Of a stretch of 64,000 bases of DNA, positions 22,570 through 44,604 are shown one piece after another (the stretch's first letter is position 1; the number at the start of each line of letters is the position of its first letter). Under the pieces are notes generated by a model. It did no database searches. It was not told where the DNA came from and worked only from the letters and a program-made list of their open reading frames with translations. The position numbers and the translations under genes were made by a program. Source of the stretch: Fomes fomentarius (lineage: Eukaryota > Basidiomycota > Agaricomycetes > Polyporales > Polyporaceae); NCBI GenBank assembly GCA_022606135.1, contig JABYQN010000003.1, positions 806,001 through 870,000 of the forward strand, read 5' to 3'.

Positions 22570-23741
22570 ACAGTGGCAGGTGGGCACGAACAGCGACCAG
22601 GAGTCCTGATGACTCCCTTACCGGTCAGGCTGTTCGTAGGCGTTGCGCGAGGATGAGGGCGCAACGATAAGCCTAGAATACAGCGAGCTTTGCGGACGCT
22701 CGACGGTGGGTTGAGCACGGCAGTTGGGAAGACGGAGGGGGCGAAGAGCGAAGAGGAATAAGTTAGGATGGAAGGCGGTGTCGGGGACGGTGAGTCGAGT
22801 TACTTGACTCTGAGTCTGAGCCGACGGCGGCGCCGGTCATGTTAACCAGCGTTATTGTGCACGTGCGCCCTCTAAGGGATCTTCACGACTCGGATAACCA
22901 ACGTTCTCTCCCAGACACGTTCAACTTCCACGTCGTCCACCAGCGTCACGCTGGTCGTATCAATCAAGTCGTCTCCCGAGTCTCTGCTGAGTTGAGGGCG
23001 CTGTTGAAAGAGATCACTAGCAATCGTACTATTCGTCTTGGTTCATTCGACTCATCAAGTAGGTACCCTCTATGACCTCAGCGGTAGCCCTTACTATGTT
23101 TGCTTATGAGATCCTCCTAAAAGCCACTATTGATGCAGCGAGCGTTGAGACAAGTATCCATACAGGCCTCTCAATGATCATCTTGAACGCTAGGTTTGCT
23201 GCCAATGACGTCTATGCATCGTGATCAATGCTGAGAAACCATTCACCTCCGACTGCCCTAAACAGCATGTCAAACCTTGCTCAATCTCCGAACGTTCGGG
23301 ACTGTAGCACTTCTCCTCCCATCCAGACGTGGAAGGACCGTAGACTGCCGCACGAAGGATCGTGTAATGACCTGAAGAGTAGGACGGTGGGCGAATAGGA
23401 GGACACAGAATAATAACTGATCACTACTCACTTCTTGAATCAATGAAGATGTCAAGGGTGTCAGTGCACAAGGAAACAGGGCTTCCACAAACCTTCAATT
23501 TCCTCCCACACGACTCCAGATGAAGGGATTCCATGAACACCGTGGGTCTGATTCAAGCCAGCACTCCGATTTTCGCGCCCATGCCGGTGGAGCAAACTAG
23601 CTCCGGTTTTTACAAGGTGCTGCCAATGCTTGGCGGAGTTTAGCAAACTTTGGCCTCAGACACGTGCCATCGAGCGCTGCTCAGGTATAAATCCTGTAAG
23701 CAATGCGGCGTTGCGATGTGAAAAGTCCCCGGGTGTGCGAC
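22570..23741. other. IBTK-like/P450 divergent intergenic region; holds the outer end of the palindrome
   Basis: The left arm of the inverted repeat begins near 22,805. From there to about 23,700 it still aligns with 43,000-43,800 in reverse complement, for example around the shared CCACCAGCGTCACGCTGG. It does so with many substitutions and indels. An ORF at 22839-23075 falls in this diverged part and its frame is not kept in the other arm, so it is not called. A TATAAAT lies at 23686-23692. Confidence 0.6.
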
Positions 23742-26018
23742 ATGGAAGACATGGGGTGCGTCTTGGCTGTGTCCGGGCTCTTGCTCATCTTCCTGTTTGC
23801 TCTCTCGCGCCGCTTAGGGCATCGCGCGGGTACACGTCTTCCACCCGGTCCTCCTGGACTCCCTCTCGTAGGCAATGTTCGTGATATTCCTCCTCTAGAC
23901 GAGTATCCATTTGCCAAGTACAAGGAACTATGTCGCAAGTACAGTGAGTGTGCCTCAGATTCATCGCTCATGTTCACTGTGAGATGCCGTTTCTAACATC
24001 GTGACAGACACTGATATCTTGCGCCTCAACGCACTCGGTCTGAACATCATTGTGCTCGACACACTCGAAGCTGCGACAGAATTGCTCGACAGGCGATCCT
24101 CGATATACTCAGGCAGGTCCGTGATCGTCTATCTTTCTCTGGGAACAAGCCGCTTGTCTTATTCTGCCGCTGCTCAATCTTGACTCTTCAGGCCCCGCAT
24201 GGTCATGTTGAACGAGCTGTCAGTACTTTGTCTGCCTTCCTTCCCTATGTCTTGATTGCATCTCTGCATACAGTGCCGGCTTTGGATGGAATTTTGCCTC
24301 AATGGACTACGGCGAGGACTGGCGCGTTTGCAGGAAGATGGCGCGCCTCGATTTCCATTCCGCTTCCTTCGCAAAGTACCGCCCAACCCTTCGCAACCAT
24401 GTCCACCAGTTTGTCCGCCGACTGGCCGAGGAGCATGGAGCTCGCCTACCCGTCCACCTGAAGCAGTGAGGAGTGTTAGCCCATCACTTCATCACACACA
24501 CTCATTCCGCTTGGTCTGGCTGGTGCTTGACTTTAGCTTGATCGGAGCAAACATTATGGACGTGATATATGGGATCAAGGTTCTTCCCGAACATGACCCA
24601 TTCATTGAGCTAGCGGAAGCTGGTCAAGAGTGTCTCAGAGAATGTGCCGTAGCTGGACTGTACCTGGTTGATATCGCCCCCATTCGTGCGTCCCCATTTG
24701 CACCAGTATGCCCACGACTGATTGTTGTGCACAGTCAAGCATATTCCGGCATGGCTCCCTGGAGCTGCATTTCAACGTGTGACCAGGGCATGGCACAAGA
24801 AAGCCACCTTGCAACTCCATATGCCATACATGAACTTCATGAAGCGTCTAGTAAGCTCCTCCTTGCATGATTTCGCAGTATAGGCATCCGAGTCTGTTTG
24901 CGCTGAAGCATGGCTTCTTTTACCCAGAACTCAGGGAACGCAGATGATTGCATGGCTAAAACACTTGTAGAAGAATTCGGTGACGAAGGGTCCGAGCAAG
25001 TTGAGCGCCACATAAAGATGACCACCGCAACGATGTACCTTGGTAAGGATCGCTGTCTGGTGCTGTCAGTCCACTAGAACCTGACATTTGTTCCTTAGCC
25101 GGTGCAGAAACAGTTGGTATCTGACAGGGCCGACTCATAGCATGGATGTTGACATTCCTGCCCATAGACTGCGGCAGCGCTGCACACGTTCATTCTTGCC
25201 ATGGTGCTCTATCCGGAGGTTCAGGAACGCGCCCGTCGCGAACTCGAGAAAGTGATTGGGACACATCGCCTCCCGACATTCAACGACTTCGGTGCCGTGC
25301 CCTACGTCGATGCACTCATCAAGGAAACGCTCCGTTGGCATCCCGTGATTGACCTCAGTAGGCACATATCACAATTGTTGAGAAGTGACATTGTAAACTG
25401 AGGGATTATGCTATGCAACAGACCCTCATCACAAGCTCCGCATGGACGATCTATACAACGGCTACTTCCTCGAGAAGGACTCGTTGATCCTGGTGAACAT
25501 CTGGTGCGCCCAACCTAGTCCCACTGTGTCAACCGGGCTACATATTCATCACCTACCGTCGTCACTGTGGCACTCCGCAGGTCAATCCTACATGACGAAC
25601 AGGTTTACCCAGATGCACTCACCTTCAAGCCCGAGCGCTTCCTCAAGTCTGAGGAAGGCACACTAGTGCTGAACCCAGACATCCTCGATCCGGAGGATGT
25701 GGCATTCGGCTTTGGGCGGCGCGTATGCCCAGGTCAGCATATGGTGTATGGCACCATGTGGATTGCGATCGCAACTATGCTCGCCTGTCTTGAAATTGGG
25801 AAGGCCAAGGACAAGTTTGGTAAGGAGATCGAGGTCGCAGAGGAGTTTGTGAGCAGATTTGTCACGTAAGTCCGTCCGGTATGACAACTAGGTTGTGGGC
25901 AGCAGTGGCACCAGACAGCGGCTGACAAAGTGTTCAATCCAGGGAGCCAAAGCCGTTCCCGTGCGACATACAGTTCCGGTCAGCAGAACATGCAACGCTG
26001 CTGGTGGGAGAAGTATGA
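23742..26018 (+). CDS. cytochrome P450 (left-arm copy)
   Basis: Microsomal cytochrome P450 monooxygenase, 518 residues, 12 exons: 23742-23943, 24008-24116, 24192-24218, 24274-24465, 24537-24685, 24735-24850, 24928-25042, 25099-25112 (14 nt), 25168-25357, 25422-25503, 25581-25865, 25943-26018; all phases agree. N-terminal membrane anchor (CVLAVSGLLLIFLFAL), proline hinge LPPGPPGLPLVGN, helix C WRVCRKM, helix I AGAETT (304-309), K-helix ETLR (361-364), PERF (416-419) and heme loop FGFGRRVCPG with Cys448. I chose the ATG at 23742 over 23703 because a TATAAAT lies only 11 bp before the latter. Substrate unknown; secondary or xenobiotic metabolism is typical. All residues from exon 10 onward match the right-arm copy, while about two dozen earlier residues differ. 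Confidence 0.92.
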
Positions 26019-26695
26019 CCAGCGCACGAGGGCCGGATCTTCTCGTTCTAGTGACTGCTTACGCGGTGTACGCTTTCTGAGAAGTGTGAGTGATAACAAG
26101 TGCACAGGTTCCTTGCCAAGCTGTGAACTCACTCTTGTCCGGGACAGTGCCTTGCAGGCCACTCGAACAACTTGGCCTCTGCTAGTGCGAGTCGTGGACT
26201 GCTATTGATTGCCTGTACAGTGTGTTTCATCCTAGTCGCCGGGACACGCATGTATATAAAACGAATTCTGGACGCCCTCCTTCCACAGGTCTCTGAATAG
26301 CCTACGTGCCACCTTAGACACGGTGTAACGACGCGTTGAAGCATGTCCCCACCGTACGGACTACTTGCGGAACCTGCATGATCCCCTTCGCTGTCGTATT
26401 CCTACACGATGCACAATGCATGAATTTGGTGCGGGACTGTCGTCGTCGTCTCTCGAGTCCAACTGACTTTGATGGGCTCACACTCTGATCTTCGTGTACT
26501 TCGTCCCCTCGGCTCGACTTCCGGCGTCGTGCTAAATGCGCAGTTCACAGGGTGTGAGGAAAGTGAGACATTCCAAACTCAACAAGCTTGGTAGACGCTC
26601 AGCTACCAACAATCCAATGTCAAATTCTAAGAGTTGAGCGGAGGAGTCGGGACGACTCGATCGATGGTGATTAAGCATGCCATGCTAATCCAACC
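26019..26695. other. convergent 3' intergenic region, P450 to GTPase (left arm)
   Basis: 677 bp between two 3' ends, identical to its mirror at 40,005-40,681. ORFs here lack family motifs. A TATATAAAA at about 26,249 sits between convergent genes and serves no recognised promoter. Confidence 0.5.
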
Positions 26696-27809
26696 TTATG
26701 GCGGACGATACACTCTTGTCTCGGCCTTCGCGAGCCCACACGTCTCAGCGATGCTCGCCCGCATCGCGTCCACACCGAAACGTGGTTGCTGGTGCGCGGA
26801 CGTGAGGATCGGTGGCAAGCACGTGGGTGCCGTTTCGAAGATGTCGCGCTGAATACCCTTGATCGTGTTCTGGAGCTCGCTCGAGCGCAGAGTGTCGACC
26901 TTTGTGATTATCGCCTGCAGCGTCCACCGGAGCCCGCCAGAGGACTGGCAGTGCGCGTCGAGAGACTGGAGCATGAGCCGGTCTGTGTCGTTCAGCCCGT
27001 GCGAGGCGTGGAAGAGGATGAAGACGCGGCGGAGTCTGCAAGGCGGGTGTTGGTGTGAGCTGCTGAGTCTGGGAGGAGGAGAGAGAAGGGGGAGGAGGGA
27101 GATGTGCTCACTCCTGACGATTCCGCACGTAGTGCTCAAAGAGCTCGCCCCATTCAGCACGTCCGCGTGCACCATACCCTGGCGCGTCTACTAGGACGAG
27201 GTGCCCCGGCGGAGGGCCAACACGATAAAAATTGAGTGTCTGGGTCCGGCCCTGTGGCAGACCGCACGTTAATAGTCAGCAAGGCGGATGGCATGGCAAA
27301 TACGACCAATGATGTACATAATCAATAGGAAGTGTCAGCTTCCGGGCTTCGACACAGCAGACTGTTTGCCACGTACGGGTTTTTTGCTCATGTGAAGCAA
27401 GTTGCGTCTCCCGAGGATGGCGTTCAGGAGGGTCGATTTACCCACGTTGGCACGACCTATTCTTAGTTGAGTATAGTACATAACGCAACGGCAACGTGGA
27501 TGGGTACGTGGGACCTACCTGTTACGATGACCTGCGAGTTAGTGTGATGTGGTCAGCATGTACACCCTCAAGAAGAGGAAGTGCTCGAGAGCTGACCTCG
27601 GGACGACCCTGCAAGTTTGGTAATGAATTCGACGTGGCCGCTGCTGCGAGGAACTCTGCTGATTGGGCGTGTGCAAAAACATCGCTTGTGGCCTTGTTCG
27701 ACATGCATCGTCGTACTACTGGCTCTACACCCGGATGCGATGAACCAGCGAGCCTTGCCAAGGTTGATGATGTTGCAAGCGACATTCTCTGGCAGAGTGC
27801 TGACATCAT
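26696..27809 (-). CDS. MRX8: EngB/YihA-type GTPase, probably mitochondrial (left-arm copy)
   Basis: TRAFAC GTPase of the EngB (YihA/YsxC) family; the fungal and animal members (Mrx8, GTPBP8) act in mitochondrial large-ribosomal-subunit assembly. Minus-strand exons 27597-27809, 27519-27531 (13 nt), 27377-27456, 27112-27251, 26696-27035; 261 residues. The N-terminus (MMSALCQRMSLATSSTLARL) is rich in Ser, Arg and Leu with few acidic residues, fitting a mitochondrial presequence. G1 GRANVGKST at 76-84, G3 DAPGYG at 124-129, G4 TKVD at 193-196 and a G5-like TSAH follow. The 13-nt microexon ends on the first base of the P-loop glycine codon. The sequence is identical to the right-arm copy, introns included, by eye. 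Confidence 0.9.
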
Positions 27810-28591
27810 GGTTGAGGGCGCTGCTGGTGACAGCAGAGGTGCAGCTGAAGGCGAGAGTTTGTATCCGCTGCGCCAAATCTATGGACAACTCTGAGCTTGA
27901 GTTGACCCGGTGGCAGTGGCAGGACCACAACTTCCGAGTGACCGTAAGCGCCAGCATGTACCTTCCGCTGTGACTAGCGCCAGATATAAGTAGACGATGG
28001 TCCTGCTTCCGGCACTCACTACATGTATCGTACACCGCTGGAAATGCGGTTGCTAGCTTCGTTATTTCAACAAAATAAAGGAGAATTCCAGCTGCTTCAA
28101 TTCGCTCCGCCTTACGAAGCCCAATGAGACTGACACTGGTCCGATGGCTTTGAAGGCTCCAGACAGGGGTATCCATCGCATTAGGTCCCGACACTTGTTC
28201 TTGAATACAGCCAGCCCTTATATGCTTTTCCGATGTTCTAGGCCTAGCTCCCGCACGTTCTTTGGCTTCAGCTGGAATCTTACCGCCCAGCTGCCAGCCC
28301 CATCCTCAATCCGACATGTCCAAGTGGGACATCCAGCCAGTCCCGCTGCAATTTATAAGCTGCCACTCCTATCCTAGATGGCTGTGTGGACTCGCTCTGA
28401 CATGTATAAATAGACGTGCTTAACACGATGATTTGGGCACCCAAGTCTCCCTCATCACCACAGTTGCCTGGCGCAACTTTCGCTTCACTCCTCAGCTACA
28501 TCTTTGCCTCTGCATTCAGGTACGTGCACTCCGTTTCTTCTTGCTCCGTGCTATCTGCTCACGATCAGTATCCCTTTCTTTGCCAACAGAT
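27810..28591. promoter_or_regulatory. divergent promoter region, GTPase and SILK-motif gene (left arm)
   Basis: 782 bp between divergent starts. TATAAATA at 28405-28412 is the likely core promoter of the SILK-motif gene. A GT-AG pair (about 28,519 to 28,590) suggests a 5' UTR intron ending just before its ATG. Overlapping ORFs on both strands are carried unchanged in the other arm, but so is everything here, so that is no evidence for coding. Confidence 0.5.
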
Positions 28592-29090
28592 ATGTTCTCC
28601 ATCACTGCCATACCCCACCCCCGCAGCATTTTGAAGCGAACCTCCGTATCATCCACATCCACGACCTCGTCCGAGTCTGCGCAATACACCCACGCACTTG
28701 TTAGAGCGCCATCCGGCAGTTCGATGCTCACCACGTACGCTGCCTCTGGAAGGCCGTCAGCGACCAGCATGGATGTGCCGCCATCTCAGAAGAGATGCGT
28801 CAGCTTCTCCGAGGATGACGAGGTCCGCTTTTACTCGCCCCTCGACCCACCCCACATAAAGCCGCCGAGCGCTGCTTCGCGGATGCTCAGTGAGTATCAT
28901 CGACATGTCGCATCAGTACGATGGACGATGGGTGACGGCTGCTTACCGTTCGTTCACAGAATCATTCGTGGATTCGATTTGCGTTGACGCAGCGAACCTA
29001 TACGCAGCACCGCCACCACCACCACCAAAGTATATCGTCCCAGCCAGGCACGTCAGAATGCAGTCGATGGACCACCGCAGATGTGCATGA
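28592..29090 (+). CDS. small SILK/RVxF-motif protein, putative PP1 docking protein (left-arm copy)
   Basis: Unrecognised 142-residue protein in two exons, 28592-28889 and 28960-29090. It has SILK at 12-15 (PHPRSILKRTSVSS) and R-C-V-S-F at 68-72 within QKRCVSFSEDDEVRFYSPL. A SILK motif followed by an RVxF motif is the standard docking pair of protein phosphatase 1 regulators, so a PP1 link is inferred. The rest is Ser/Thr/Pro-rich with a PPPPPP run at the C-terminal side. The ATG follows a probable 5' UTR intron. An upstream ORF from 28433 runs through this intron and was not used. A larger gene at 45,349-47,663 shows a related motif order. Identical copy in the right arm. Confidence 0.6.
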
Positions 29091-29312
29091 GAGACGTCGA
29101 GGAGGTCAGATATCTCAAACAGCTGGACACTGTTTGTATCCCACATGTATTCAATGTCACAAAGACCCAATACCCATTTCATTTCATTCCGTTTCGATCA
29201 CTATGGTTTGGTTACACGAGAGGCATACACACATCATCGCGAGATCACGGAAGAGAGAAATATACATTTAGCGATCGCGACCACAAGAAACTCACATATT
29301 CTTCTGTCCCCT

Positions 29313-29373
29313 CTCTAACCTTCTGTCAGCCCTCTAACCTTCAGCCCTCTAACCTTCTGTCAACCCTCTGAAC
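29313..29373. repeat. short tandem repeat between SILK-motif gene and ATPase
   Basis: Imperfect repeats of CCCTCTAACCTTCTGTCA and shorter CCCTCTAACCTTCAG units lie just after the ATPase stop codon. An identical mirror copy is at about 37,327-37,387. Confidence 0.7.
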
Positions 29374-29378
29374 ATCTG

Positions 29379-32300
29379 TCACACTGATGGCTTGAACCAC
29401 TTCAACTGCAGTGCCACCAGCACAACCGGTAGCACACTGACAATTTCCCCAAGCCCTGCATACGCCGGCGAGATACGCACCCGCACAAACGCCCCCGCCG
29501 CGAGCAAAATCGCAAACAGGTTGTACACGAACGACCACCCAAAGTTCATCGCGATCCGGCGCGTGACCGCGTCCGACAGCTCAAACAGGGTCAAAATCCC
29601 AGTGAGAGAAGGGTGCGTCAGAACCACATCTGCCGCAGTAGACGCCGCCATGCCAGCACCATCCCCAGTGTGTAGGTGCACCCCAATCGCAGCTTGAGCG
29701 AGAGCGACGGCATCGTTCGTGCCATCTCCGCAGAATAACACTGTCTTGCCCTGTGCGGTGAGCTCCTTGATATATGCCTGCTTGTCGGCAGGAAGACACC
29801 CGGCGCGCACGCGCTCTGCAGGGATGCCAAGGGAGGCCGCGACATTGAAGACAGCGTTGGGATGGTCGCCGCTAAGGATAGAGACATGGATGTTGCGCGC
29901 TGTGAGCGACCGGATGACCTCTTGGGCTTCGGGACGGAGAGTGTCGGATAAGCCGAACGCGGCGAGAAGACGTTCGCCATGGACGACACAGAAAGCGGTG
30001 AGGCCCTGGGCGATGAGAGGCTGGACGGCAGTGTGCGATTCCAGTCCGAGCCAACGAGCGCTACCGCCCCGGAGTGTCTGGCCGAGTAACTTGCCCTGCA
30101 TCCCTTTGCCCGTGACCATCTCGATGTCCTGGACAGACGGCTGGCCTTCAAGGGGGACAGAGGAGTCAGCGGCAACGGCGCGGGCGACAGGGTGGCGGCT
30201 GGTCGCGACAAGCTCTGCGACGATCGCGGAAACGTCAAAGTCCGCACTCTGTTCAATGAAGCGGCTAACGACCGACAGCTTGCCCAGCGTGACTGTTCCG
30301 GTCTTGTCCAGCACGACGTGGTTGACCTTGCGCGCCTGCTCGATCGTCGTCGCTGCCTTGAATACCAGCCCGAGCTTCGCACCAACACCACCCGCGATGA
30401 GGATGACCATTGGTACCGCCAGCCCGATTGCACAAGGGCATGAGATGGCAAGGACCGAGATCGCATAGGTGAGCGCGCCGATCGCCGACTCACCCTTTGA
30501 CTGGTGGCGTACCGTAACCCCGACCGCCATCTGCACGGCGAAGGTGACGAGCGCGAGGACGAGCACGACGGGGACAAACCAGCCGCAGATCCAATCGACT
30601 ACCTCTTGCACATGAGCACGAGAGAAGCGTGCGTCATCGACCATGCTCGCAATATCACTGATCGTGTTCTCTCCTGGGAGGCGCGTCACTTTGATGAGGA
30701 GTGTACTGGGGCCATTGAGGGTGCCTGCGATGACAGTGCTCCCTGCGGCCTTTTCCACGGGACGCGACTCGCCTGTCATCATCGACTCGTCGACCGTGCT
30801 GTTGCCTGAGATGACCTCGCCGTCGGTGATGATGGCTGAATCGGGCATAACCTTGAAGGTGTCGTCGTATTGCAGAAGTCGTACGTCCACCTCAATTTCG
30901 CTGTTGTCGGGGAGCACGATGCATGCAGTACGCTCTTGGAGTGATCGGATGGAGATGGCCTCTATCGCGCGTTGGCGTGCGATAGCGCTGACGAGCTGAC
31001 CGATCACAATGAGGGTGACGAGCAACGTGCTCGTTTCGAAGAATTCTCCCGTTGCAAGGGGCTTGCCAAGCATGTCATAGGCGAATGCGACGACAGAGTA
31101 GACGTACGCCGCAGTCGTGCTCAGCACGATCAGAGTCTCCGTCTCAATCAGACGGGAGAAGACCAGACTCTTGAACGAGCTCACGTAGAATGGCCCAGTG
31201 ATTACGACCTGCACAACGGTCGCTAGTATGAGGGAGGCGATAGCGTAAGCATGAGGATGGGGAGGAAGCGGAGCCCAAGTCATGACCAGTACGGGGATCG
31301 TGAGGATAATCGATAGCAGTGCCCGTATGGTCAATTTGCGAATGTGCTTCGCTCCCGCGGTAAGAGCAGGATCGGGCGGCTCTGGAGCAAGCACTGGAGA
31401 GAATGACTCGTAAAGTTCCAAAACCTTGCGAGCACCGATGACGTTGGGGTCGTAGATGATCAGCACATTGTCCTTGTCGCGGGAGGCTTCGACCACCTCC
31501 ACTCCAGAAGGACGCTGCATCGCAACAAACTTCTCTTGCAAGGGTCGCGGAACGGCGAGCAGGAGCTCGTGCGTAGAACCCGCCTTGATGACTTCCGCAG
31601 AGAATCCAGATCGTTTTTCGATGAGTTGCACCAGTGACCCAACGTCCGCCATTTCTTTATCGAAGTCAAACTCGGCGCGGCATAGGACAAGGCTGACCTT
31701 GACGTTACGAAGGGCCGGAATTTCATGGAGAGTGCGCCTAAGTTTGTTCTCGCAACCAGTGCACGTCATGCCCTTGACCGCTAACACAGCGTGCTCCGTG
31801 GACGTCCCGGCACCCTTCTCCGTCATGTTAACAGCGACATGTTGGCTCTTCTCATCCTGAGTAGAGCCGAGATCATCGCACGACCCTCCGCCGCAACACC
31901 CGTCACGGCAGCAAGATTCAAGGGAGACATGAGAGCGTGACTTGTTGGATGCGGAGGTCCTCGGATCCAGATGGCCACGGTAGGGAACGCTGCGAATGCT
32001 CAAGGCCGGGCCACCACAGTCGCTCTTGCCGCAACACGAGTGAATAGAAGCGGGGTGGGAGCTTTCGGAGGACTTGCGGCCGGGGAAGATCAAGCGCGCG
32101 CTGCGCTTGCTTGAATTAGAACGCGCGACAGATTTCCCACCTAGCTGGGAGGTGGGAGAGCAACAAGACTTGAGGCCACGCGCCAGCAAGGCCTTGCAGA
32201 CGCACCCGAAGGCAGCGAGGGTGTCGTTGTAGCGACTTCGAGCAATGGTGCGATGCTCCCCGCACGCTTCCTTCCGAGATTCGGGGACAGGATCGGACGC

Positions 32301-32817
32301 CTTGGTGACTGAACGCTTGCGGAGGCCATTGTGTACGCAGCTATCAGGGCCAGCGGAAGGGACAGTGCTGGAGCCACCCCCGGGTTCGGCGTGAGTTGAA
32401 TTACTGTCTACCTCGTTCTTCTCGCAACAGGTGCAGTCGGAAGCATTCGCTAGACCAAAATCAGAATACACAACAGGAAGTGCTATGATGGGAGGTACTG
32501 ACTGTTCTCAACACAATCGCTGCAACAGGAAGCTGCATCGGCCTTGGGAGCCTCACTAGCTTGACCGTGGATGTGCAATTCGTCGTCGACACAGATGACC
32601 CGAGCGAGTTCGTCGAAACACGCATCTGAGGAGGGACAAGGAGTGAGGGGATCAATGTGTGGGCAGACACGCTGGACTCACCATCACACCCACAGATTGA
32701 GCCGCCACAGCATCCAGGCTCTACAGCACCTTCAGCGTCCTTCACAGAGGCATCAGTCTCTTGGTGCAGGCTCTGGACTTCGACGTCGCTGGCACAGTCG
32801 TCACAGCAGCTACCCAT
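29379..32817 (-). CDS. P1B-type heavy-metal ATPase (Cu/Cd exporter, PcaA-like)
   Basis: Membrane P-type ATPase for copper/cadmium-class metals, 1109 residues, minus-strand exons 32682-32817, 32503-32625, 29379-32449; phases agree. The first 220 residues are very Cys-rich (GSCCDDC, GCCGGSICGC, SCCSDC, CTCCEKN, SCCRDGCCGGGSCDD), as in fungal PcaA-type detoxification pumps. One HMA domain follows (GMTCTGC). Core motifs: TGES actuator loop, SCPCAIG transmembrane metal site, DKTGTVT phosphorylation site, SRHPVARA (HP motif), GDGTNDAVA hinge. At least six hydrophobic helices are visible, ending [17 protein letters not shown]. It lies in the palindrome spacer except for its last 53 codons, which belong to the left arm. 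A tail-only copy exists in the right arm. Metal specificity cannot be fixed from sequence. Confidence 0.93.
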
Positions 32818-33760
32818 GGTCGTGGTTGTCGATTGAGTGGGGGCTTATCGGGGGAGATGCCAGCCAACGGGAGCCGAGCCTGAAGAGAGACCAGGGTGCC
32901 AAATATGACCACAGCAAGCGAGCCTGGAACACAGAACGCAGCGCACGGACCAGTTGCGGGAAACGTGGTCACGACGCGCGAGAAACCGGGTGCTGCTCGC
33001 TGGGCGCTGACCCGTGAGTGTGACGGCCGAACGAACGGCGACGCGGGGATTGAGTACGCCATGTCGCCAGGCGAAGGCGAAGGCGAAGAGGAAGGACTGT
33101 CGGATACCGATACCTATCCCTCTACTAGCATGCAGTCCACTGGCTGGTGAGAATACGAACGTTGGATAGGGGAAGTCGCCAGAGAATACCAGAGTACTAG
33201 TGCGCAACGTCACGGTCGCATAGGTCATGCATGCGGGTTCTTTGCATTCTACTGTGCGGATGGTTGAACGAAGACGTCCGGGCGATGGAAGAGGGGTGGT
33301 GGGGGTTAAGACAGAGGTTGGGAAAGCTGCGAAAACGGTATGCTGCAACACATAGCTGTCACTGGTGCGGTACTCGATTCTGGCAAGCGCCCTCGGGGCC
33401 TGCCCTGTACATGCAGCACACCCAGAGCACACCTATCTTAGTATCTATCTTCTTCCTTGCACACAGCCGAAGCACGGCAGACGGAACATATGCCATGAGG
33501 GCGGTTCGTGACCACGTAGCATTCCCAGCAGACTCGTTGAAGAAGCACTGAGTATAAGACCCGGAAGTCAAACATCCCTCAGTCCAGCTGACTATTCTCG
33601 TTCTATTACAGTAGGCACAATGACATAGCTACCAGATGTGTGCTCGCAGGTGGTTCTTCTTGTACCATGTTGGTACCTGGGTCCACACCGTGTTGTCTCG
33701 CCAATTCGCATCCCATACGCAAACATCTCGTGCGTCGCCGGAACGCACCGATGCCTCAGG
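32818..33760. other. ATPase promoter / hydrolase 3' flank
   Basis: 943 bp between the ATPase start and the hydrolase stop. It must hold the ATPase promoter; no TATA box or clear metal-response element was recognised. A plus-strand ORF at 32896-33150 ends in a Glu/Gly/Ser-rich tail without motifs. The last part, 33584-33749, is duplicated in inverted orientation at 37,001-37,165. Confidence 0.5.
33584..33749. repeat. source copy of the segment found at the palindrome junction
   Basis: Reverse complement of 37,001-37,165 with about six substitutions and one single-base indel. It lies just past the hydrolase stop codon. The match at this end stops at CCAGCT, and the mirror continues into ATPase sequence through the shared TGG. 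Confidence 0.9.
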
Positions 33761-35835
33761 CTACTGTTCAACTTTGTGGAAGAAGACACCCGCCCGCTCC
33801 CGAATAGTCTCACCCTTCCATGGTTGACCATCCTCGATACCTATGAACGCACATCCGGTGACTCTCGCAGAATGCTGATCTACCTCGCACTCGACGGTGA
33901 ACCACCCTTCCATGCTCCCATATTCGAATGGAGTTGAGTTGCGCCCATATCCGTGCGGAAAAATCGTCACCGTGTCCGCTGAATATGCTTCCGAACCACT
34001 TGTCGTACGAGTTCGGCGCAGCTTGATATGCGTTCGCCATATACCGGGGAGCGTTCCGTACAGCGTGTCATGATCAAGTTGGCCATTAGGGCTGACTGAT
34101 GTCCAGTCTGACAGGATCTTCGTGCACGGGGGCGACGTGCTCCCTGGGGCGCAGAGGAAGATGGTCCCGTACCCTAGGTCGTGGTATTCTCCGGTGTAGT
34201 GTTCGACAGGGATCCCGGATGCGTGATCTGAGGCATGAAAAGGGGACTGGTGGCGGGCTGAAGAGAAACGAGGTGTTAACGAGAACTCGTTTCCATCCGG
34301 GAGCTCGAAGCTATGCTTCAACTCTAAGTAATCATCAATGACCCGGGTACGAAGGAGGGTCTCAGCGTTATGGGATCCGTCGGCGTTCGCGAATGTGACG
34401 ATTCCGATATTGTCACTTGGGAGGAAAGTGACGTCCGTGAGGAAACCTGGTAGTCCGCCACCGTGGGAGACCATCTGCGAAGGTTACCACATATCAGAAC
34501 GAGCATGGCGGATAACTGGAGTCACAGGACCTACGTCGTGGCCCGAGTACGACACACGTTGCCAGCCCATACCATACCCAGCGATCGATAGAACAGAGCT
34601 CTGTGCTTGACCCTTGACAATGGAGTGGGCGGTAGTTATCTCCTCATAGGCTGAACGAGGGATGACCCTGTGGTTGGTGGACGGGTCAACACCTTCGTTG
34701 AGCAGTGTCGCGAGCCACTTGGTCTACATAGCATGGTATGAGTGTTGAGACTACTAGTATTGCGCTCTCAGCCAGGACTCACCATGTCGATCGTGTTAGA
34801 GATGATCCCTCCAGCGCCTGCGATCAATTCTGACAGAGACTCGCCTTTGAACCAGTAGGGTATGCGTCGACCTTGAGGGTCCCACGAATGGCTGAGTAGA
34901 CCGCTTGCTTCCGCCTCGTCTGCTCGGTACGTAGTCGAGGTCATATTCAGCGGATCGAATATCCTTTGCTGTACGAAGTCCCGGAACGCCAAACCAGAGT
35001 ACGTGGAGACAAGGTGAGCGCCAAGGATGTACATCTACTCGTCACTCGTCAGTGTCCTGCTCCTGGCGCTGCTTTCGATAAATGACACCTACGATGTTGT
35101 TGTACGACCAGTGTTCGCGCAACTCGTACTTGGTCCTCAGGTGTCGTATCCTCCGAATGATGTCGATAGGCCTATCATCTCCATGGTAGGCCGTATCATG
35201 CCTGCGAAACTCTCTTTCAGCTACATTGCGATCAAGTCTCATAAGGAGATCAAACCTCGTTAGTCCTGACACGTGAGTAAAGATATCTCGAAGGTTCGCC
35301 TTCTCCGTTGACCATTCCCGGTCGAGCTTCCAGTCCTCCGGAAGCAAAAGTTTGACTTTCGTGTCCCATGTCAGGGTCGATACGGAGGGGGCAACACGGT
35401 GACGTTGCGGCCGGTGGCGAAGTCGTCGATCAGGATACCTATCGCGCTCACGAGGAAAGCCTTTGAGCAAGATCCGATGCTGAAGAGCGTCTGCGAAGTC
35501 CACGGTGAGCTTGGCGCAGAATCACAGAAGTTGTTGCTTATTACCTCTGGTCGCACGGAGTCGCCATCTTCTGTCATGTTACCCCAAGCACCAAACTCGG
35601 TCGTGATCTTGTCACCATCCTGCCGCACAAAGCCAGTAGAGAGCCCAGGGACACCACGCTCCGTCAATAGCCTCTCTGCGAATGCCGAGATTTCCGGTGT
35701 GAGCGCCGTCTTCGTATTGTGGGCTGATGAGGTAGCTGGGTCCAGCAACGGAACCTGCGCTGGGGCACCAAAGAGGTTGGCATCTGCGCCGAGCAAGAGA
35801 GCAAGGAGTGGCAACGACTTCCTCAACGACAACAT
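33761..35835 (-). pseudogene. secreted beta-lactamase-fold serine hydrolase with a one-base frameshift
   Basis: Serine beta-lactamase/D-aminopeptidase-like (LACTB-type) hydrolase. Minus-strand exons 35545-35835, 35256-35490, 35093-35201, 34783-35034, 34535-34723, 33761-34474. A secretion signal (LRKSLPLLALLLGADA) starts the protein. Catalytic motifs are present: SCSK (SxxK), WSYNN (YxN) and SHGGGLPGF. Exon 2 is one base short: its first half reads through GRNVTVLPP and the second half continues as STLTWDTKVKLLL in another frame. The break falls in a run of five G (plus strand 35387-35391), and no GT-AG intron explains it. Either the gene is disabled, or the consensus lost one base in the homopolymer. 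Introns at 35491-35544 and 35202-35255 are both 54 bp and stop-free. Substrate unknown. Confidence 0.75.
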
Positions 35836-37000
35836 GCTGTTCAGTTGAGCAAGGTAAAGAGAGGCGGGTGCATCTTTGAATTCAAGTAAGTACAACGAAC
35901 GCCAGCCGCGCGGGTTTGCTGCGTACTGTCACTTGCCACTGATGCGCCTTGCCCGCAATATCATGATATGATGACGACAGCCCTGACAGCGCTGCGACGG
36001 TGCCACTGCGGCTGCAGGCATGATATCTAGTACATCACTGTACATTATGTAGGTCATTTACATTGTATTGGCATTCGATGATGCGGATGAATGCTGAGTC
36101 ACGCAATCATGTGCCGCAAGTTGAGACCGTGCCACACAGGACAGCTATCTCCAAAATTGGTGCCCGCTCATCTCCGACTGACGCACGCGCACTTTCGACA
36201 CGAAAAAGTCAGAAAATTCAGACAAGTTGACTGTGCTCCTGCTGCTGCACCTCTTGCTCTGGAACTAGTTATACACACTGCTACAAGCATAGCTGTACCT
36301 TGTGAATCTACATAGATACTTGGTTTTGCGAGTTACACATGCCAGATCATCTAGGAACAATCCCCAAGTTCTGACGAAGATCCGTCCACAGGAACCTCCT
36401 CTCTTCACCCTAAAGATCCCTAGCAAACTGTATACACACTCCCTACTTTCTATGTCAATTTTATATAGTCTACGAGTGATTCTGGGTTTCTAATGCCTTG
36501 CTGAAAGATGTCGCCCTTTGGCGCCCAATGACGTGGTTACTAAGGTAAGGCCAAATAGTGAATTTCTGTCCCTCGTGAGGCTTGAAAATGGCTCAGTGCA
36601 CTCAACCGTACCTCCCGATGAGTTCTATCGGCCACTCGAGGTGAGAACGTGAAGTGACCTCCCATATGTTTTTCGAATTTTTCGTGTGCAAAGTGTGCTG
36701 TGCAGTTCGGCGCTCGGCCACTAAAATCGCAACCAGCTGGAGGATGCTTGTGATTCTGAAGTCCGACGTCCGTCAGCCGACAGGTGGTCACGGTGACTGA
36801 AGGATGCGTCTCACAACTTCCGAAGTGTCGGTGGGTTAGTATAACCGTGTACTATAGGAAGTGGGTATGTTGGGCGGCCCGTCCGCTGAGTTTGCTCCTG
36901 TATGAATCCCTGACCCTGCACTCCGTGAATAACAAGTCAAATCATCCCCAGACGGCAGTATTTAACAGGCGCATGCAGAAGAGCGACGAGAGTCGCTCAA
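35836..37000. other. spacer DNA without a supported gene
   Basis: 1.17 kb upstream of the hydrolase and left of the palindrome junction. It is more A/T-rich than its surroundings around 36,100-36,500. ORFs are short and motif-free. No repeat or element end was recognised. Confidence 0.45.
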
Positions 37001-37165
37001 GGTGCGTTCCGGCGACGCACGAGATTTTTGTGTGTGGGATGCGAATTGGCGAGACAACACGGTGTGGACCCAGGTACCAACATGGTACAAGAAGAACCAC
37101 CTGCGAGCACACATCTGATGGCTATGTCATTGTGCCTACTATAAAGAACGAGAATAGTCAGCTGG
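37001..37165. repeat. inverted copy of 33584-33749 at the palindrome junction
   Basis: This segment is the reverse complement of spacer sequence 3.4 kb away and abuts the right arm. Its last three bases (TGG, 37163-37165) are also the first three bases of the ATPase-tail copy, so the two homologies overlap by a 3-bp microhomology. It fits a templated insertion made during template switching. Confidence 0.9.
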
Positions 37166-37321
37166 TCGTTCGTGTACAACCTGTTTGCGATTTTGCTCGC
37201 GGCGGGGGCGTTTGTGCGGGTGCGTATCTCGCCGGCGTATGCAGGGCTTGGGGAAATTGTCAGTGTGCTACCGGTTGTGCTGGTGGCACTGCAGTTGAAG
37301 TGGTTCAAGCCATCAGTGTGA
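37163..37321 (+). pseudogene. truncated 3' end of the P1B-ATPase (53 codons)
   Basis: Copy of the last 53 codons and stop of the ATPase, from [12 protein letters not shown] to KWFKPSV, in the opposite orientation to the intact gene. No upstream ATPase sequence is present and no start or splice site serves this frame. A 191-codon ORF (36784-37359) runs across it in a different frame and is an accidental chimera. Confidence 0.92.
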
Positions 37322-37609
37322 CAGATGTTCAGAGGGTTGACAGAAGGTTAGAGGGCTGAAGGTTAGAGGGCTGACAGAAGGTTAGAGAGGGGACAGAAGA
37401 ATATGTGAGTTTCTTGTGGTCGCGATCGCTAAATGTATATTTCTCTCTTCCGTGATCTCGCGATGATGTGTGTATGCCTCTCGTGTAACCAAACCATAGT
37501 GATCGAAACGGAATGAAATGAAATGGGTATTGGGTCTTTGTGACATTGAATACATGTGGGATACAAACAGTGTCCAGCTGTTTGAGATATCTGACCTCCT
37601 CGACGTCTC
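37322..37609. repeat. mirror of the ATPase/SILK-gene 3' interval
   Basis: Same sequence as 29,091-29,378 in reverse complement, including the tandem repeat CAGAAGGTTAGAGGG at about 37,327-37,387. It now lies downstream of the ATPase-tail fragment and of the right-arm SILK-motif gene. Confidence 0.8.
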
Positions 37610-38108
37610 TCATGCACATCTGCGGTGGTCCATCGACTGCATTCTGACGTGCCTGGCTGGGACGATATACTTTGGTGGTGGTGGTGGCGGTGCTGCGTAT
37701 AGGTTCGCTGCGTCAACGCAAATCGAATCCACGAATGATTCTGTGAACGAACGGTAAGCAGCCGTCACCCATCGTCCATCGTACTGATGCGACATGTCGA
37801 TGATACTCACTGAGCATCCGCGAAGCAGCGCTCGGCGGCTTTATGTGGGGTGGGTCGAGGGGCGAGTAAAAGCGGACCTCGTCATCCTCGGAGAAGCTGA
37901 CGCATCTCTTCTGAGATGGCGGCACATCCATGCTGGTCGCTGACGGCCTTCCAGAGGCAGCGTACGTGGTGAGCATCGAACTGCCGGATGGCGCTCTAAC
38001 AAGTGCGTGGGTGTATTGCGCAGACTCGGACGAGGTCGTGGATGTGGATGATACGGAGGTTCGCTTCAAAATGCTGCGGGGGTGGGGTATGGCAGTGATG
38101 GAGAACAT
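37610..38108 (-). CDS. small SILK/RVxF-motif protein (right-arm copy)
   Basis: Exact mirror of 28592-29090. Exons 37811-38108 and 37610-37740, 142 residues, with SILK at 12-15 and RCVSF at 68-72. Its likely TATA box (TATAAATA on the minus strand) is at 38288-38295 and is unchanged. Both copies therefore have the same promoter and may both be active. Function inferred only from the motif pair. Confidence 0.6.
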
Positions 38109-38890
38109 ATCTGTTGGCAAAGAAAGGGATACTGATCGTGAGCAGATAGCACGGAGCAAGAAGAAACGGAGTGCACGTACCTGAATGCAGAGGCAAAGAT
38201 GTAGCTGAGGAGTGAAGCGAAAGTTGCGCCAGGCAACTGTGGTGATGAGGGAGACTTGGGTGCCCAAATCATCGTGTTAAGCACGTCTATTTATACATGT
38301 CAGAGCGAGTCCACACAGCCATCTAGGATAGGAGTGGCAGCTTATAAATTGCAGCGGGACTGGCTGGATGTCCCACTTGGACATGTCGGATTGAGGATGG
38401 GGCTGGCAGCTGGGCGGTAAGATTCCAGCTGAAGCCAAAGAACGTGCGGGAGCTAGGCCTAGAACATCGGAAAAGCATATAAGGGCTGGCTGTATTCAAG
38501 AACAAGTGTCGGGACCTAATGCGATGGATACCCCTGTCTGGAGCCTTCAAAGCCATCGGACCAGTGTCAGTCTCATTGGGCTTCGTAAGGCGGAGCGAAT
38601 TGAAGCAGCTGGAATTCTCCTTTATTTTGTTGAAATAACGAAGCTAGCAACCGCATTTCCAGCGGTGTACGATACATGTAGTGAGTGCCGGAAGCAGGAC
38701 CATCGTCTACTTATATCTGGCGCTAGTCACAGCGGAAGGTACATGCTGGCGCTTACGGTCACTCGGAAGTTGTGGTCCTGCCACTGCCACCGGGTCAACT
38801 CAAGCTCAGAGTTGTCCATAGATTTGGCGCAGCGGATACAAACTCTCGCCTTCAGCTGCACCTCTGCTGTCACCAGCAGCGCCCTCAACC
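38109..38890. promoter_or_regulatory. divergent promoter region, SILK-motif gene and GTPase (right arm)
   Basis: Mirror of 27,810-28,591, with no difference seen. It contains the TATA box of the SILK-motif gene at 38288-38295 and the presumed promoter of the GTPase. Confidence 0.5.
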
Positions 38891-40004
38891 ATGATGTCAG
38901 CACTCTGCCAGAGAATGTCGCTTGCAACATCATCAACCTTGGCAAGGCTCGCTGGTTCATCGCATCCGGGTGTAGAGCCAGTAGTACGACGATGCATGTC
39001 GAACAAGGCCACAAGCGATGTTTTTGCACACGCCCAATCAGCAGAGTTCCTCGCAGCAGCGGCCACGTCGAATTCATTACCAAACTTGCAGGGTCGTCCC
39101 GAGGTCAGCTCTCGAGCACTTCCTCTTCTTGAGGGTGTACATGCTGACCACATCACACTAACTCGCAGGTCATCGTAACAGGTAGGTCCCACGTACCCAT
39201 CCACGTTGCCGTTGCGTTATGTACTATACTCAACTAAGAATAGGTCGTGCCAACGTGGGTAAATCGACCCTCCTGAACGCCATCCTCGGGAGACGCAACT
39301 TGCTTCACATGAGCAAAAAACCCGTACGTGGCAAACAGTCTGCTGTGTCGAAGCCCGGAAGCTGACACTTCCTATTGATTATGTACATCATTGGTCGTAT
39401 TTGCCATGCCATCCGCCTTGCTGACTATTAACGTGCGGTCTGCCACAGGGCCGGACCCAGACACTCAATTTTTATCGTGTTGGCCCTCCGCCGGGGCACC
39501 TCGTCCTAGTAGACGCGCCAGGGTATGGTGCACGCGGACGTGCTGAATGGGGCGAGCTCTTTGAGCACTACGTGCGGAATCGTCAGGAGTGAGCACATCT
39601 CCCTCCTCCCCCTTCTCTCTCCTCCTCCCAGACTCAGCAGCTCACACCAACACCCGCCTTGCAGACTCCGCCGCGTCTTCATCCTCTTCCACGCCTCGCA
39701 CGGGCTGAACGACACAGACCGGCTCATGCTCCAGTCTCTCGACGCGCACTGCCAGTCCTCTGGCGGGCTCCGGTGGACGCTGCAGGCGATAATCACAAAG
39801 GTCGACACTCTGCGCTCGAGCGAGCTCCAGAACACGATCAAGGGTATTCAGCGCGACATCTTCGAAACGGCACCCACGTGCTTGCCACCGATCCTCACGT
39901 CCGCGCACCAGCAACCACGTTTCGGTGTGGACGCGATGCGGGCGAGCATCGCTGAGACGTGTGGGCTCGCGAAGGCCGAGACAAGAGTGTATCGTCCGCC
40001 ATAA
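38891..40004 (+). CDS. MRX8: EngB/YihA-type GTPase, probably mitochondrial (right-arm copy)
   Basis: Mirror of 26696-27809, exons 38891-39103, 39169-39181, 39244-39323, 39449-39588, 39665-40004. The 261-residue product is the same as the left copy, with G1 GRANVGKST, G3 DAPGYG and G4 TKVD intact. The first exon ends LPNLQGRPE and the 13-nt microexon encodes VIVT plus the first base of the P-loop glycine codon. A housekeeping organelle-ribosome GTPase in two identical copies is unusual, so dosage or one silent copy should be considered. Confidence 0.9.
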
Positions 40005-40681
40005 GGTTGGATTAGCATGGCATGCTTAATCACCATCGATCGAGTCGTCCCGACTCCTCCGCTCAACTCTTAGAATTTGACATTGGATTGTTGGTAGCTG
40101 AGCGTCTACCAAGCTTGTTGAGTTTGGAATGTCTCACTTTCCTCACACCCTGTGAACTGCGCATTTAGCACGACGCCGGAAGTCGAGCCGAGGGGACGAA
40201 GTACACGAAGATCAGAGTGTGAGCCCATCAAAGTCAGTTGGACTCGAGAGACGACGACGACAGTCCCGCACCAAATTCATGCATTGTGCATCGTGTAGGA
40301 ATACGACAGCGAAGGGGATCATGCAGGTTCCGCAAGTAGTCCGTACGGTGGGGACATGCTTCAACGCGTCGTTACACCGTGTCTAAGGTGGCACGTAGGC
40401 TATTCAGAGACCTGTGGAAGGAGGGCGTCCAGAATTCGTTTTATATACATGCGTGTCCCGGCGACTAGGATGAAACACACTGTACAGGCAATCAATAGCA
40501 GTCCACGACTCGCACTAGCAGAGGCCAAGTTGTTCGAGTGGCCTGCAAGGCACTGTCCCGGACAAGAGTGAGTTCACAGCTTGGCAAGGAACCTGTGCAC
40601 TTGTTATCACTCACACTTCTCAGAAAGCGTACACCGCGTAAGCAGTCACTAGAACGAGAAGATCCGGCCCTCGTGCGCTGG
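40005..40681. other. convergent 3' intergenic region, GTPase to P450 (right arm)
   Basis: Mirror of 26,019-26,695; no difference seen and no feature recognised. Confidence 0.5.
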
Positions 40682-42958
40682 TCATACTTCTCCCACCAGC
40701 AGCGTTGCATGTTCTGCTGACCGGAACTGTATGTCGCACGGGAACGGCTTTGGCTCCCTGGATTGAACACTTTGTCAGCCGCTGTCTGGTGCCACTGCTG
40801 CCCACAACCTAGTTGTCATACCGGACGGACTTACGTGACAAATCTGCTCACAAACTCCTCTGCGACCTCGATCTCCTTACCAAACTTGTCCTTGGCCTTC
40901 CCAATTTCAAGACAGGCGAGCATAGTTGCGATCGCAATCCACATGGTGCCATACACCATATGCTGACCTGGGCATACGCGCCGCCCAAAGCCGAATGCCA
41001 CATCCTCCGGATCGAGGATGTCTGGGTTCAGCACTAGTGTGCCTTCCTCAGACTTGAGGAAGCGCTCGGGCTTGAAGGTGAGTGCATCTGGGTAAACCTG
41101 TTCGTCATGTAGGATTGACCTGCGGAGTGCCACAGTGACGACGGTAGGTGATGAATATGTAGCCCGGTTGACACAGTGGGACTAGGTTGGGCGCACCAGA
41201 TGTTCACCAGGATCAACGAGTCCTTCTCGAGGAAGTAGCCGTTGTATAGATCGTCCATGCGGAGCTTGTGAGGAAGGTCTGTTGCATAGCATAATCCCTC
41301 AGGTTACAATCTCACACCTCAAAAGTTGTGATATGTGCCTACCGAGGCCAATCACGGGATGCCAACGGAGCGTTTCCTTGATGAGTGCATCGACGTAGGG
41401 CACGGCACCGAAGTCGTTGAATGTCGGGAGGCGATGTGTCCCAATCACTTTCTCGAGTTCGCGACGGGCGCGTTCCTGAACCTCCGGATAGAGCAACATG
41501 GCAAGAATGAACGTGTGCAGCGCTGCCGCAGTCTATGGGCAGTAATGTCAACATCCATGCTATGAGTCGGCCCTGTCAGATACCAACTGTTTCTGCACCG
41601 GCTAAGGAACAAATGTCAGGTTCTAGTGGACTGACAGCACCAGACAGCGATCCTTACCAAGGTACATCGTTGCGGTGGTCATCTTTACGTGGCGCTCAAC
41701 TTGCTCGGACCCTTCGTCACCGAATTCTTCTACAAGTGTTTTAGCCATGCAATCATCTGCGTTCCCTGAGTTCTGGGTAAAAGAAGCCATGCTTCAGCGC
41801 AAACAGACTCGGATGCCTATACTGCGAAATCATGCAAGGAGGAGCTTACTAGACGCTTCATGAAGTTCATGTATGGCATCTGGAGTTGCAAGGTGGCTTT
41901 CCTGTGCCATGCCCTGGCCACACGTTGGAATGTAGCTCCAGGGAGCCATGCCGGAATATGCTTGACTGTGCAAACAATCAGTCGTGGGGCATACTGGCGC
42001 GAAAGGAGACGCACGAATGGGGGCGATATCAACCAGGTATAGTCCAGCTACGGCACATTCTCCCATACACTCTTGACCAGCTTCCGCTAGCTCAATGAAT
42101 GGGTCATGTTCGGGAAGAACCTTGATCCCATAGGTCACGTCCATAATGTTTGCTCCGATCAAGCTAAAGTCAAGCACCAGCCAGACCAAGCGGAATGAGT
42201 GTGTGTGATGAAGTGATGGGCTAACACTCCTCACTGCTTCAGGTGGACGGGTAGGCGAGCTCCATGCTCCTCGGCCAGTCGGCGGACAAACTGGTGGACA
42301 TGGTTGCGAAGGATTGGGCGGTACTTTGCGAAGGAAGTGGAATGGAAATCGAGGCGCGCCATCTTCCTGCAAACGCGCCAGTCCTCGCCGTAGTCCATTG
42401 AGGCAAAATTCCATCCAAAGCCGGCACTGTATGCAGAGATGCAATCAAGACATAGGGAAGGAAGGCAGACAAAGTACTGACAGCTCGTTCAACATGACCA
42501 TGCGGGGCCTGAAGAGTCGAGATCGGCCAGCGTCAGAAACAGACAAGCCGCTTGTTCACAGAGAAAGATAGACGATCACGGACCTGTCTGAGTATATCGA
42601 GGATCGCCTGTCGAGCAGTTCTGTCGCAGATCCGAGTGTGTCGAGCACAATGATGTTCACACCGAGTGCGTTGAGGCGCAAGATATCAGTGTCTGTCACG
42701 AGGTTAGAAACGGCATTTCACAATGAACATGAGCGATGAATCGAAGGAACACTCACTGTACTTGCGACATAGTTCCTTGAACTTGGCGAATGGATAGTCG
42801 TCTGGTGGAGGAATATCACGAACATTGCCTACGAGAGGGAGTCCAGGGGGCCCGGGTGGAAGACGGGTACCCGCACGACGCCCTAATCGGCGAGAGAGTG
42901 CAAACAGGAAGATGAGTAAGAGCCCGGATACAGCCAAGACGCACCCTATGTCTTCCAT
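40682..42958 (-). CDS. cytochrome P450 (right-arm copy)
   Basis: Mirror of 23742-26018 with the same 12 exons: 42757-42958, 42584-42692, 42482-42508, 42235-42426, 42015-42163, 41850-41965, 41658-41772, 41588-41601, 41343-41532, 41197-41278, 40835-41119, 40682-40757. All splice sites and frames are intact, giving 518 residues with AGAETT, ETLR, PERF and FGFGRRVCPG. About 24 residues differ from the left copy, all in exons 1-10. Examples: PPPDDYPFAKF against PPLDEYPFAKY, VNIIVLDTLGSAT against LNIIVLDTLEAAT, VIGL against VIDL. Exons 11-12 are identical. Differences fall in the half of P450s that holds most substrate-recognition regions, so the copies may differ in substrate. Confidence 0.92.
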
Positions 42959-44082
42959 GTCGCAAACCCGGGGAATTTTCACATCGCGACGCCGCATTGC
43001 TTGTAGGATTTATACCTGAGCAGCGCTGAATGGCACGTGTCTGAGGTCAAAGTTTGGTAAACTCCGCCAAGCATCGGCAACACTTTGTAAAAACCGGAGC
43101 TAGTTCGCTCACCGGTATGGGCGCAAAAATTGGAGTGCTGGCTTGAATCAGACCCACGGTGTTCATGGAATCCTTCATCTGGAGTCGTCAGGGAATTGAA
43201 TGTTTGTGGATACCCTGTTTCCTTGTGCACTGACACCCTTGACATCTTCATGCACATCTGATTAAAGAAGTGAGTAGTGATCAGTTATTATTCTGTATCC
43301 TGTAATCGCCCACCGTCCTGCTTCACCAGGTCAGTACACAATCCTTTGTGCGGCAGTCTACGGCCCTGTCACGTCTGGATATACCTCACTTGTACATCAC
43401 CGATCGAATGAAAGATGGAGATCGAGCACGGTTTGACATATTTCGGAGGTGAACGACTTCTCGGTATTGACCACGATGTACCGATGTCAGCGAAACTGGA
43501 CTTCAAGATGTTCATTGAGAGACCTCTACGAATACGTGTCTTCAAGCTCGCCGATTATATTGGCTTTGAGGATGATCTCATGAGCAGGGTACCTACTTGA
43601 TGAGTCGATTCCACCAAGAATAACAGAGCGATTCCTGTGAGAATACCTACGGCCAGCGTGACGCTGGTGGACGACATGGGAACGTTGGTTATCGCAACGA
43701 TCCCAAACGCCTATCTATGGGCGTCGGTGTGCGGACAGGGCGCACGTGCATAATAACGCTGGGCAATAGACGGCGTCGACGTCGCTCAGAGCCAGAGTCA
43801 GGCTCCTTCCCGCCTCCACTTCGAGTTGAGGGACTGAACCAAGGAGGAGGGAGTACAGGGTATACTCCACACATAAGCCTTCACCCAAGTAGACGCACAC
43901 TCAGGTTAAATCACGTGCTATGTTAGTCCCTCAACTCTCAGTGGTCCTGGAGGCTGGCGTCAAACACATAGGAAGACTTCATCCTGGCTTTGACTTGTGT
44001 ACTGACTGTATACCGCAGTACTTAGTGGGTACTGGTAGCTGAACGTCTACACGTTAAATGAAGTGAACCGGTACCTTGCAGA
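42959..44082. other. P450 promoter and outer palindrome end, then unique DNA
   Basis: Up to about 43,800 this aligns with 22,805-23,700 in reverse complement with many changes. The TATA-like TATAAAT before the right P450 is kept. From 43,800 to 44,082 no homology within the window was seen. Short ORFs (for example 43415-43600) are not conserved between arms. Confidence 0.5.
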
Positions 44083-44604
44083 TAGTGTATAGGGCAGAAT
44101 TGTTTTGGGCAATTCTGCCGGCAGATATGGCACAACGGCAATTGCCAAAGGCGGCAAAATCTGGCAGATATTTGGCGCCCGCGCGAGTCCGTACCACAAT
44201 TTCTGCAGAATTCTTGCTCTCAATTCTAATCGCGAGACTTCCGAAGTGACCTAGAGTGAATTTTACAGACTGATGAGAGTGAATGCGAGACAATGTCGAC
44301 TAATTGGCCTTTGAGCAGGTGGACCCAATCACCCCGTCCGGCGTCTACCTCAGACTACCTGTGGGATGGTCTCAAGACCTTCCAAATCGCCCCGATCCTC
44401 TCTTGTCGCATTTTGAAAGCTGTTAAGAACTTTTTTTCATACTTCCATCAGCTCTACGGGTCACCATATGACGAGAATTGATTGTATGCTCATCGGCGCT
44501 TAGGTTTATCTGCCATATTTTGCCCGCTACCTTCGCCGGCAGAATGGCAATTGCCGCTGGCACATGCCAAATGGCAGAATGGCAGCATTCTGCCTCGCAC
44601 ACTA
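44083..44604. mobile_element. 522-bp hAT-like MITE with 8-bp target-site duplication
   Basis: The left end reads TAGTGTATAGGGCAGAATTG, and the reverse complement of the right end reads TAGTGTGCGAGGCAGAATGC. Both are followed by similar subterminal sequence including CGGCAATTGCC and GGCAAAAT-TGGCAGATA, so the inverted similarity extends about 90-100 bp. The element is flanked by direct repeats CTTGCAGA at 44075-44082 and 44605-44612. An 8-bp duplication with TAG-starting inverted repeats is the hAT superfamily pattern. The interior has no transposase, only short ORFs, so it is non-autonomous. Small stem-loops (GGCAGAATTG/CAATTCTGCC at 44093-44119; GGCAGAATG/CATTCTGCC at 44573-44594) lie just inside each end. 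Confidence 0.75.

Follow-up and report, generated by a model that had tools for sequence, protein, structure and literature searches.

In the genome of Fomes fomentarius, two arms of several kilobases lie in inverted orientation on one contig and carry the same genes, and the locus raises the question of how they arose and how one part of them comes to be free of any difference while identity falls away outside it. The locus was analysed within a window of 64,000 bases, corresponding to bases 806001–870000 of contig C3 (3,501,534 bases) in a genome of 40.9 Mb and 24 contigs; the data comprise one assembly of one strain, and the analysis used sequence only. The initial annotation described a giant gene-bearing palindrome, and such a structure is present in the assembly. 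Self-BLASTN of the 64,000 bases aligned 23101–29537 with 43586–37163 on the minus strand (6453 columns, 96.99% identity, E value of 0), that is, 97% over 6.45 kb, and three short, weaker blocks extended the inverted match outward to 22805/43800. The inner pair 24728–29537/37163–41972 (4810 nt) was given as 100% complementary by a repeat search of the window, which is a rounded value, with single differences present up to 25428. The pieces of the palindrome were the sole inverted pairs of at least 60 bp in the output of that search, and the flanking regions, 1–22804 and 43801–64000, showed no match to each other. It had also been noted that left and right positions add up to 66,700. A base-by-base check covering 23903–25428 and the inner end showed that the sum is correct at the single differences and at the inner end, but that it fails in the short stretch bounded by 1-base indels at 24711 and 24727. 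The features of the locus are listed in Table 1.

Table 1. Features of the inverted repeat on contig C3 (positions in the window)
Feature	Position	Strand	Remarks
Left arm, outer decayed part	22805–23442	+	Identity to right arm about 63–77% (200-bp bins); gapped
Left arm, partly homogenised part	23443–25428	+	P450 upstream DNA, exons 1–9 and start of exon 10; 87 clustered substitutions
Left arm, identical inner block (4109 bp)	25429–29537	+	0 differences from right arm
Segment in left arm, absent from right arm	29538–33586		Putative 4049-bp deletion; CCA overlap at joint
Innermost end of left arm	33584–33749	+	96% to 37001–37165
Central spacer proper (3.25 kb)	33750–37000		Proposed from self-BLASTN and joint alignment
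Innermost end of right arm, adjoining deletion joint	37001–37165	-	96% to 33584–33749
Right arm, identical inner block	37163–41271	-	Base-by-base alignment
Right arm, diverged outer part	41272–43800	-	Self-BLASTN and alignment
Cytochrome P450, left copy	23742–26018	+	12 exons, 518 aa, open; PF00067
Cytochrome P450, right copy	40682–42958	-	Open; 24 of 518 residues differ from left copy
EngB/YihA-type GTPase, left copy	26696–27809	-	5 exons including a 13-nt micro-exon, 261 aa; PF01926
EngB-type GTPase, right copy	38891–40004	+	Identical to left copy
SILK-motif gene, left copy	28592–28987	+	About 131 aa from ATG; stop-to-stop frame 28424–28987
SILK-motif gene, right copy	37713–38108	-	Identical to left copy
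Heavy-metal P-type ATPase, PCA1 kind	29379–32817	-	Main frame 29379–32507; 5′ part to 32817 by eye
Putative serine beta-lactamase/transpeptidase-like hydrolase gene	33761–35835	-	Initial long frame terminates at 35371; remainder in other frames
Dispersed repeat of about 600 bp in spacer	36141–36743		At least 39 further places, 76–89%

The P450, GTPase and SILK-motif genes assigned earlier to both arms were all confirmed as open in each. All 11 introns of the P450 gene have GT-AG borders in both arms, and the spliced frames are open across the 12 exons. The P450 matched a public protein of F. fomentarius, P0121 (494 aa, 100% over 95% of the query), the model of which lacks the last exon and ends 24 residues short. 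The five-exon GTPase gene is likewise open and identical in the two arms; its Pfam match was MMR_HSR1, and the EngB/YihA-type label is a presumptive one carried over from the initial annotation. When the GTPase protein was searched against the whole genome, eight matches were obtained, four per arm, with no match outside the two arms. The SILK-motif frame lies inside the identical block of each arm and had no Pfam match. Elsewhere in the genome, at least 21 partial matches (65–82%) to the 23.7–29.5-kb region were detected, all of them in its last 1.34 kb, the end that carries the SILK-motif gene and the end of the ATPase.

The 7.6 kb between the arms had been regarded as a single spacer carrying the ATPase and the hydrolase. 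These 7.6 kb are not one unrelated spacer: a 166-bp inner match had been overlooked, and some 4 kb of a longer arm is missing on the right side. The segments 33584–33749 and 37001–37165 form an inverted pair of 166 columns (96%) that is collinear with the arms, in the same order and orientation, and abuts the arm end; a genome search found this match at no place beyond these two. Going inward, the left side consists of the arm, the ATPase, its upstream DNA and the 166-bp segment, and the right side of the arm and the 166-bp segment. Because the pair follows the arm order on both sides, the most plausible reading is that the right arm corresponds to the left arm with about 4.05 kb (29538–33586) missing, joined at a 3-bp CCA overlap. 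The true arms would then be about 10.9 kb long around a 3.25-kb spacer. The ATPase carries HMA, PCA1-type HMA, E1-E2 ATPase and hydrolase domains (Pfam) and shares 80% identity with an Earliella scabrosa protein and 94% with another database protein. It lies partly inside 29538–37162, in agreement with the initial annotation, but its frame straddles the left inner border at 29537, and its 3′ end is found again in the right arm (C3:843157–843318, window 37157–37318, residues 989–1042, 96%). This truncated 3′ end occupies 37163–37321, so that the right arm keeps only the last 52 codons or so. The sole long ATPase copy found in the genome is the one at the left arm of the window, and we consider on the basis of its position that the PCA1-type metal ATPase is a gene of the left arm.

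The identity of the two arms was then followed outward from the inner end in 200-bp bins, gap columns being excluded. After the 4109 bp without a difference, it fell to about 98% (24.2–25.4 kb), about 93% (23.4–24.2 kb), about 77% (23.0–23.4 kb) and about 63% (22.8–23.0 kb). Base-by-base alignment gave 0 differences across 25429–29537, intergenic DNA and introns included, and the outer edge of this block is sharp, with 10 differences within 77 bp at 25352–25428 and then none. Further out, 21 of 293 columns differed in the P450 upstream DNA (23443–23741; 7%, plus 6 gap columns), and 66 of 320 ungapped columns differed in 23101–23442 (about 21%, plus 30 gap columns). The 87 substitutions in 23443–25428 are clustered: the observed sum of squared gaps was reached by 0 of 5000 shuffles, and the largest gap by 54 of 5000. 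Clustering was weaker in 24182–25428 alone, where the corresponding numbers were 148 and 852 of 5000 shuffles. The same gradation is seen in the P450 gene, in which dS between the arms is 0.155 in exons 1–3 and 0.018 in exons 4–10, with no divergence in exons 11–12. Exons 4–10 (24274–25503) show 15.5 non-synonymous versus 3.5 synonymous changes, with several of the introns between them identical; the resulting ratio of dN to dS above 1 is based on 19 changes, and we do not take it as evidence of selection. Repeat-induced point mutation was considered as a source of the differences and was not supported by the 49 transitions versus 38 transversions in 23443–25430; over the whole arm, the transition types were balanced (24, 22, 18 and 18). 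Purifying selection is rejected as the cause of the identical block, since the block takes in intergenic DNA and introns.

Two gene-bearing inverted arms of several kilobases are thus present, with sharp tract edges and with non-coding identity that locally exceeds what a single duplication age allows. We consider it likely that an older inverted duplication, a deletion in the right arm and subsequent gene conversion between the arms explain the locus. According to this history, an inverted segmental duplication of about 10.9 kb would have arisen on the chromosome, its copies separated by about 3.25 kb that contained the hydrolase gene. The right copy would then have lost about 4.05 kb, comprising most of the ATPase gene and its upstream DNA, at the 3-bp overlap, after which the arms would have exchanged sequence by gene conversion. 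Conversion is invoked because one duplication event would leave arms of uniform age, yet identity falls in stairs and the differences cluster. The latest conversion would have covered at least 4109 bp, from the deletion to a point within the P450 gene; earlier conversions of a patchier kind would account for the steps at about 98% and 93%, and the outermost DNA would have escaped and decayed. The identical block stops at the very point where the deletion interrupts the homology, as would be expected had the last conversion followed the deletion; the opposite order is also conceivable. Crossovers between the arms are predicted to flip the spacer. The anatomy, the stairs of identity, the open frames and the collinear inner match were observed directly, and from these we infer the order of events, conversion as the process and the flipping of the spacer by crossovers. 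The palindrome had further been described as prone to hairpins and recombination: recombination is to be expected, and the stair-like identity fits conversion, but hairpin formation is unlikely because the spacer is kilobases long (3–8 kb).

The main rival to this history is that the inverted repeat is real but the block without differences is a product of assembly or polishing, in which the reads of both arms were merged, so that the arms may differ by a few percent throughout. The identical block is long and would be the hardest part to keep apart; its outer edge is sharp, immediately after the 10 differences in 77 bp, and the arms were kept apart in the assembly at the deletion joint, both of which count to some extent against a merger. 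We regard assembler smoothing as unlikely. A separate, later inverted re-duplication that replaced the inner block on an older palindrome would also produce the sharp edge at 25428/25429. However, the identical block is in register with the older outer arms (the sum of 66,700 applies in both parts). This follows directly from conversion with nothing else assumed, and we consider re-duplication an improbable substitute for it.

The contents of the spacer bear on another explanation, in which the 166-bp ends are the terminal repeats of a 3.6-kb mobile element that carries the hydrolase and landed between the arms. In the hydrolase region, one exon matches PF00144 at 23.3 bits, which is under the cut-off of 27, and the other four frames had no Pfam match; the frames lie in several registers, and the putative hydrolase gene is not called intact. 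The 166-bp inverted pair does flank 33750–37000, as the ends of an element would. Nevertheless, none of the five frames of at least 150 aa within 33584–37165 matched a Pfam transposase family, no target-site duplication was seen by eye at 33584 and 37165, and neither the ends nor the hydrolase part (33750–36100) recurred elsewhere in the genome. Moreover, the outer end coincides with the arm end, which is unlikely by chance. A DNA transposon with terminal inverted repeats is disfavoured, as further copies, a transposase and a target-site duplication were all looked for and not found, and we consider an inserted element very improbable. Dispersed repeats do occur at the locus. The repeat at 36141–36743 was counted by scoring 40 of 75 candidates, so that the number of places in Table 1 is a lower bound. 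Another, of about 520 bp, is located just outside the right arm (44083–44604); it shares 99% identity with C11:687059–687580, and nine further places carry most of it (87–96%). This repeat is probably a short mobile element that was active recently.

In this group of fungi, much of the life cycle is spent as a dikaryon, and an allele from the second nucleus could in principle have been mis-joined head to head; this deserves hardly any credence, as the outer flanks do not match each other and genome searches with 19000–23700 and 43000–48000 found only the other arm and dispersed repeats, with no second allelic locus.

The SILK-motif gene and the ATPase were also surveyed elsewhere in the genome, in 12 genome stretches compared of the 14 drawn. 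DNA matching the SILK region was present in 10 of the 12, at 11 places. Clear pieces of the ATPase were detected in six of these 10 stretches (L029, L030, L031, L032, L035 and L037) and a marginal one in L033, with no full gene in any; L040 (C3:1.963 Mb) carried ATPase pieces without SILK, and L034 carried neither. The ATPase pieces on C8, C12, C5 and at C3:1.963 Mb are broken at different points. On this comparison, loss of the ATPase beside a retained SILK copy seems to have happened repeatedly, the right arm being one more case. The paralogues at L029–L033 and L035–L037 (C8, C12, C16 and C5) are dispersed, and their upstream DNA is conserved. Nine paralogue regions and the window's own all have stop-to-stop SILK frames of at least 160 residues, extending up to 597, and several of the long frames carry many repeats of about 20 residues of the kind MYTTDPEEHVRAPSRR. 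Among 5.8 billion proteins, one relative of the short form in the window was found by a search that needs shared 5-residue words and similar length, by which longer members would be missed. The SILK-motif set looks like a lineage-specific orphan family, and it may be more unusual than the palindrome itself.

We also considered whether the locus is a mating-type palindrome. Matches to the STE3 pheromone receptor were found on C16 (257–349 kb) and, at a distance of about 420 kb from the locus, at C3:405 kb. Those to M3 peptidases, which serve as an HD-locus marker, were on C2 and C7. As the locus is not near these candidate sites, a mating-type palindrome is not supported. In the C16 region (G000:C16:257351–349647), several STE3-type receptors form a cluster, the span of which includes the SILK paralogue L036 (C16:281–291 kb).

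Structures of a similar kind have been described in other organisms. The closest fungal parallel found is the flip/flop region of Saccharomyces chromosome XIV (PMC9731477), in which a 24-kb region with 15 genes is bounded by two almost identical, gene-bearing 4-kb inverted repeats that are continually homogenised. Like the F. fomentarius locus, this is a homogenised, gene-bearing inverted repeat of a fungal nuclear genome with unique genes between its arms; the Saccharomyces inversion is known to be polymorphic and has a history spanning the genus, whereas inversion is here a prediction from one assembly. The palindromes of the human Y chromosome, such as P6, are reported to have near-identical arms through gene conversion (PMC3723533), with kilobase tracts and rare inversions. 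Their inverted arms are similarly kept alike by conversion, but they exceed 99.9% identity and belong to the male-specific region, whereas in Fomes the outer part would have escaped conversion and none of the mating-type candidates found lies close by. Long inverted gene pairs of Caenorhabditis are near-perfect and hold whole genes, as do the Fomes arms, and are reported as apparently actively maintained (PMC1803023). Related species were compared in that case; the Fomes locus is known from one genome. By analogy, the locus may work like the flip/flop region, the Y palindromes and the worm inverted pairs, and would add a new location to a type of structure that is already known. No description of it was found in the literature on F. 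fomentarius genomes and copper ATPases, fungal inverted repeats, gene conversion and mating-type inversion, a survey outside of which most subscription papers lay and from which absence in print is not claimed.

It is conceivable, if rather doubtful, that the arms serve as a device for partial homogenisation, in which conversion would prevent the GTPase and the heme-binding end of the P450 from diverging, its front would diversify at the escaping edge, where exons 4–10 show mainly amino-acid changes, and the spacer would flip between strains. General knowledge of such repeats is unchanged by the locus. What it offers is a compact record, confined to a single locus of a basidiomycete, of what would be a duplication, a short-overlap deletion and stepwise copying from arm to arm, with clear tract edges that make it typeable across strains. 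In addition, the gene of the EngB-type GTPase, for which the genome showed no match outside the arms, is kept here as two identical copies.
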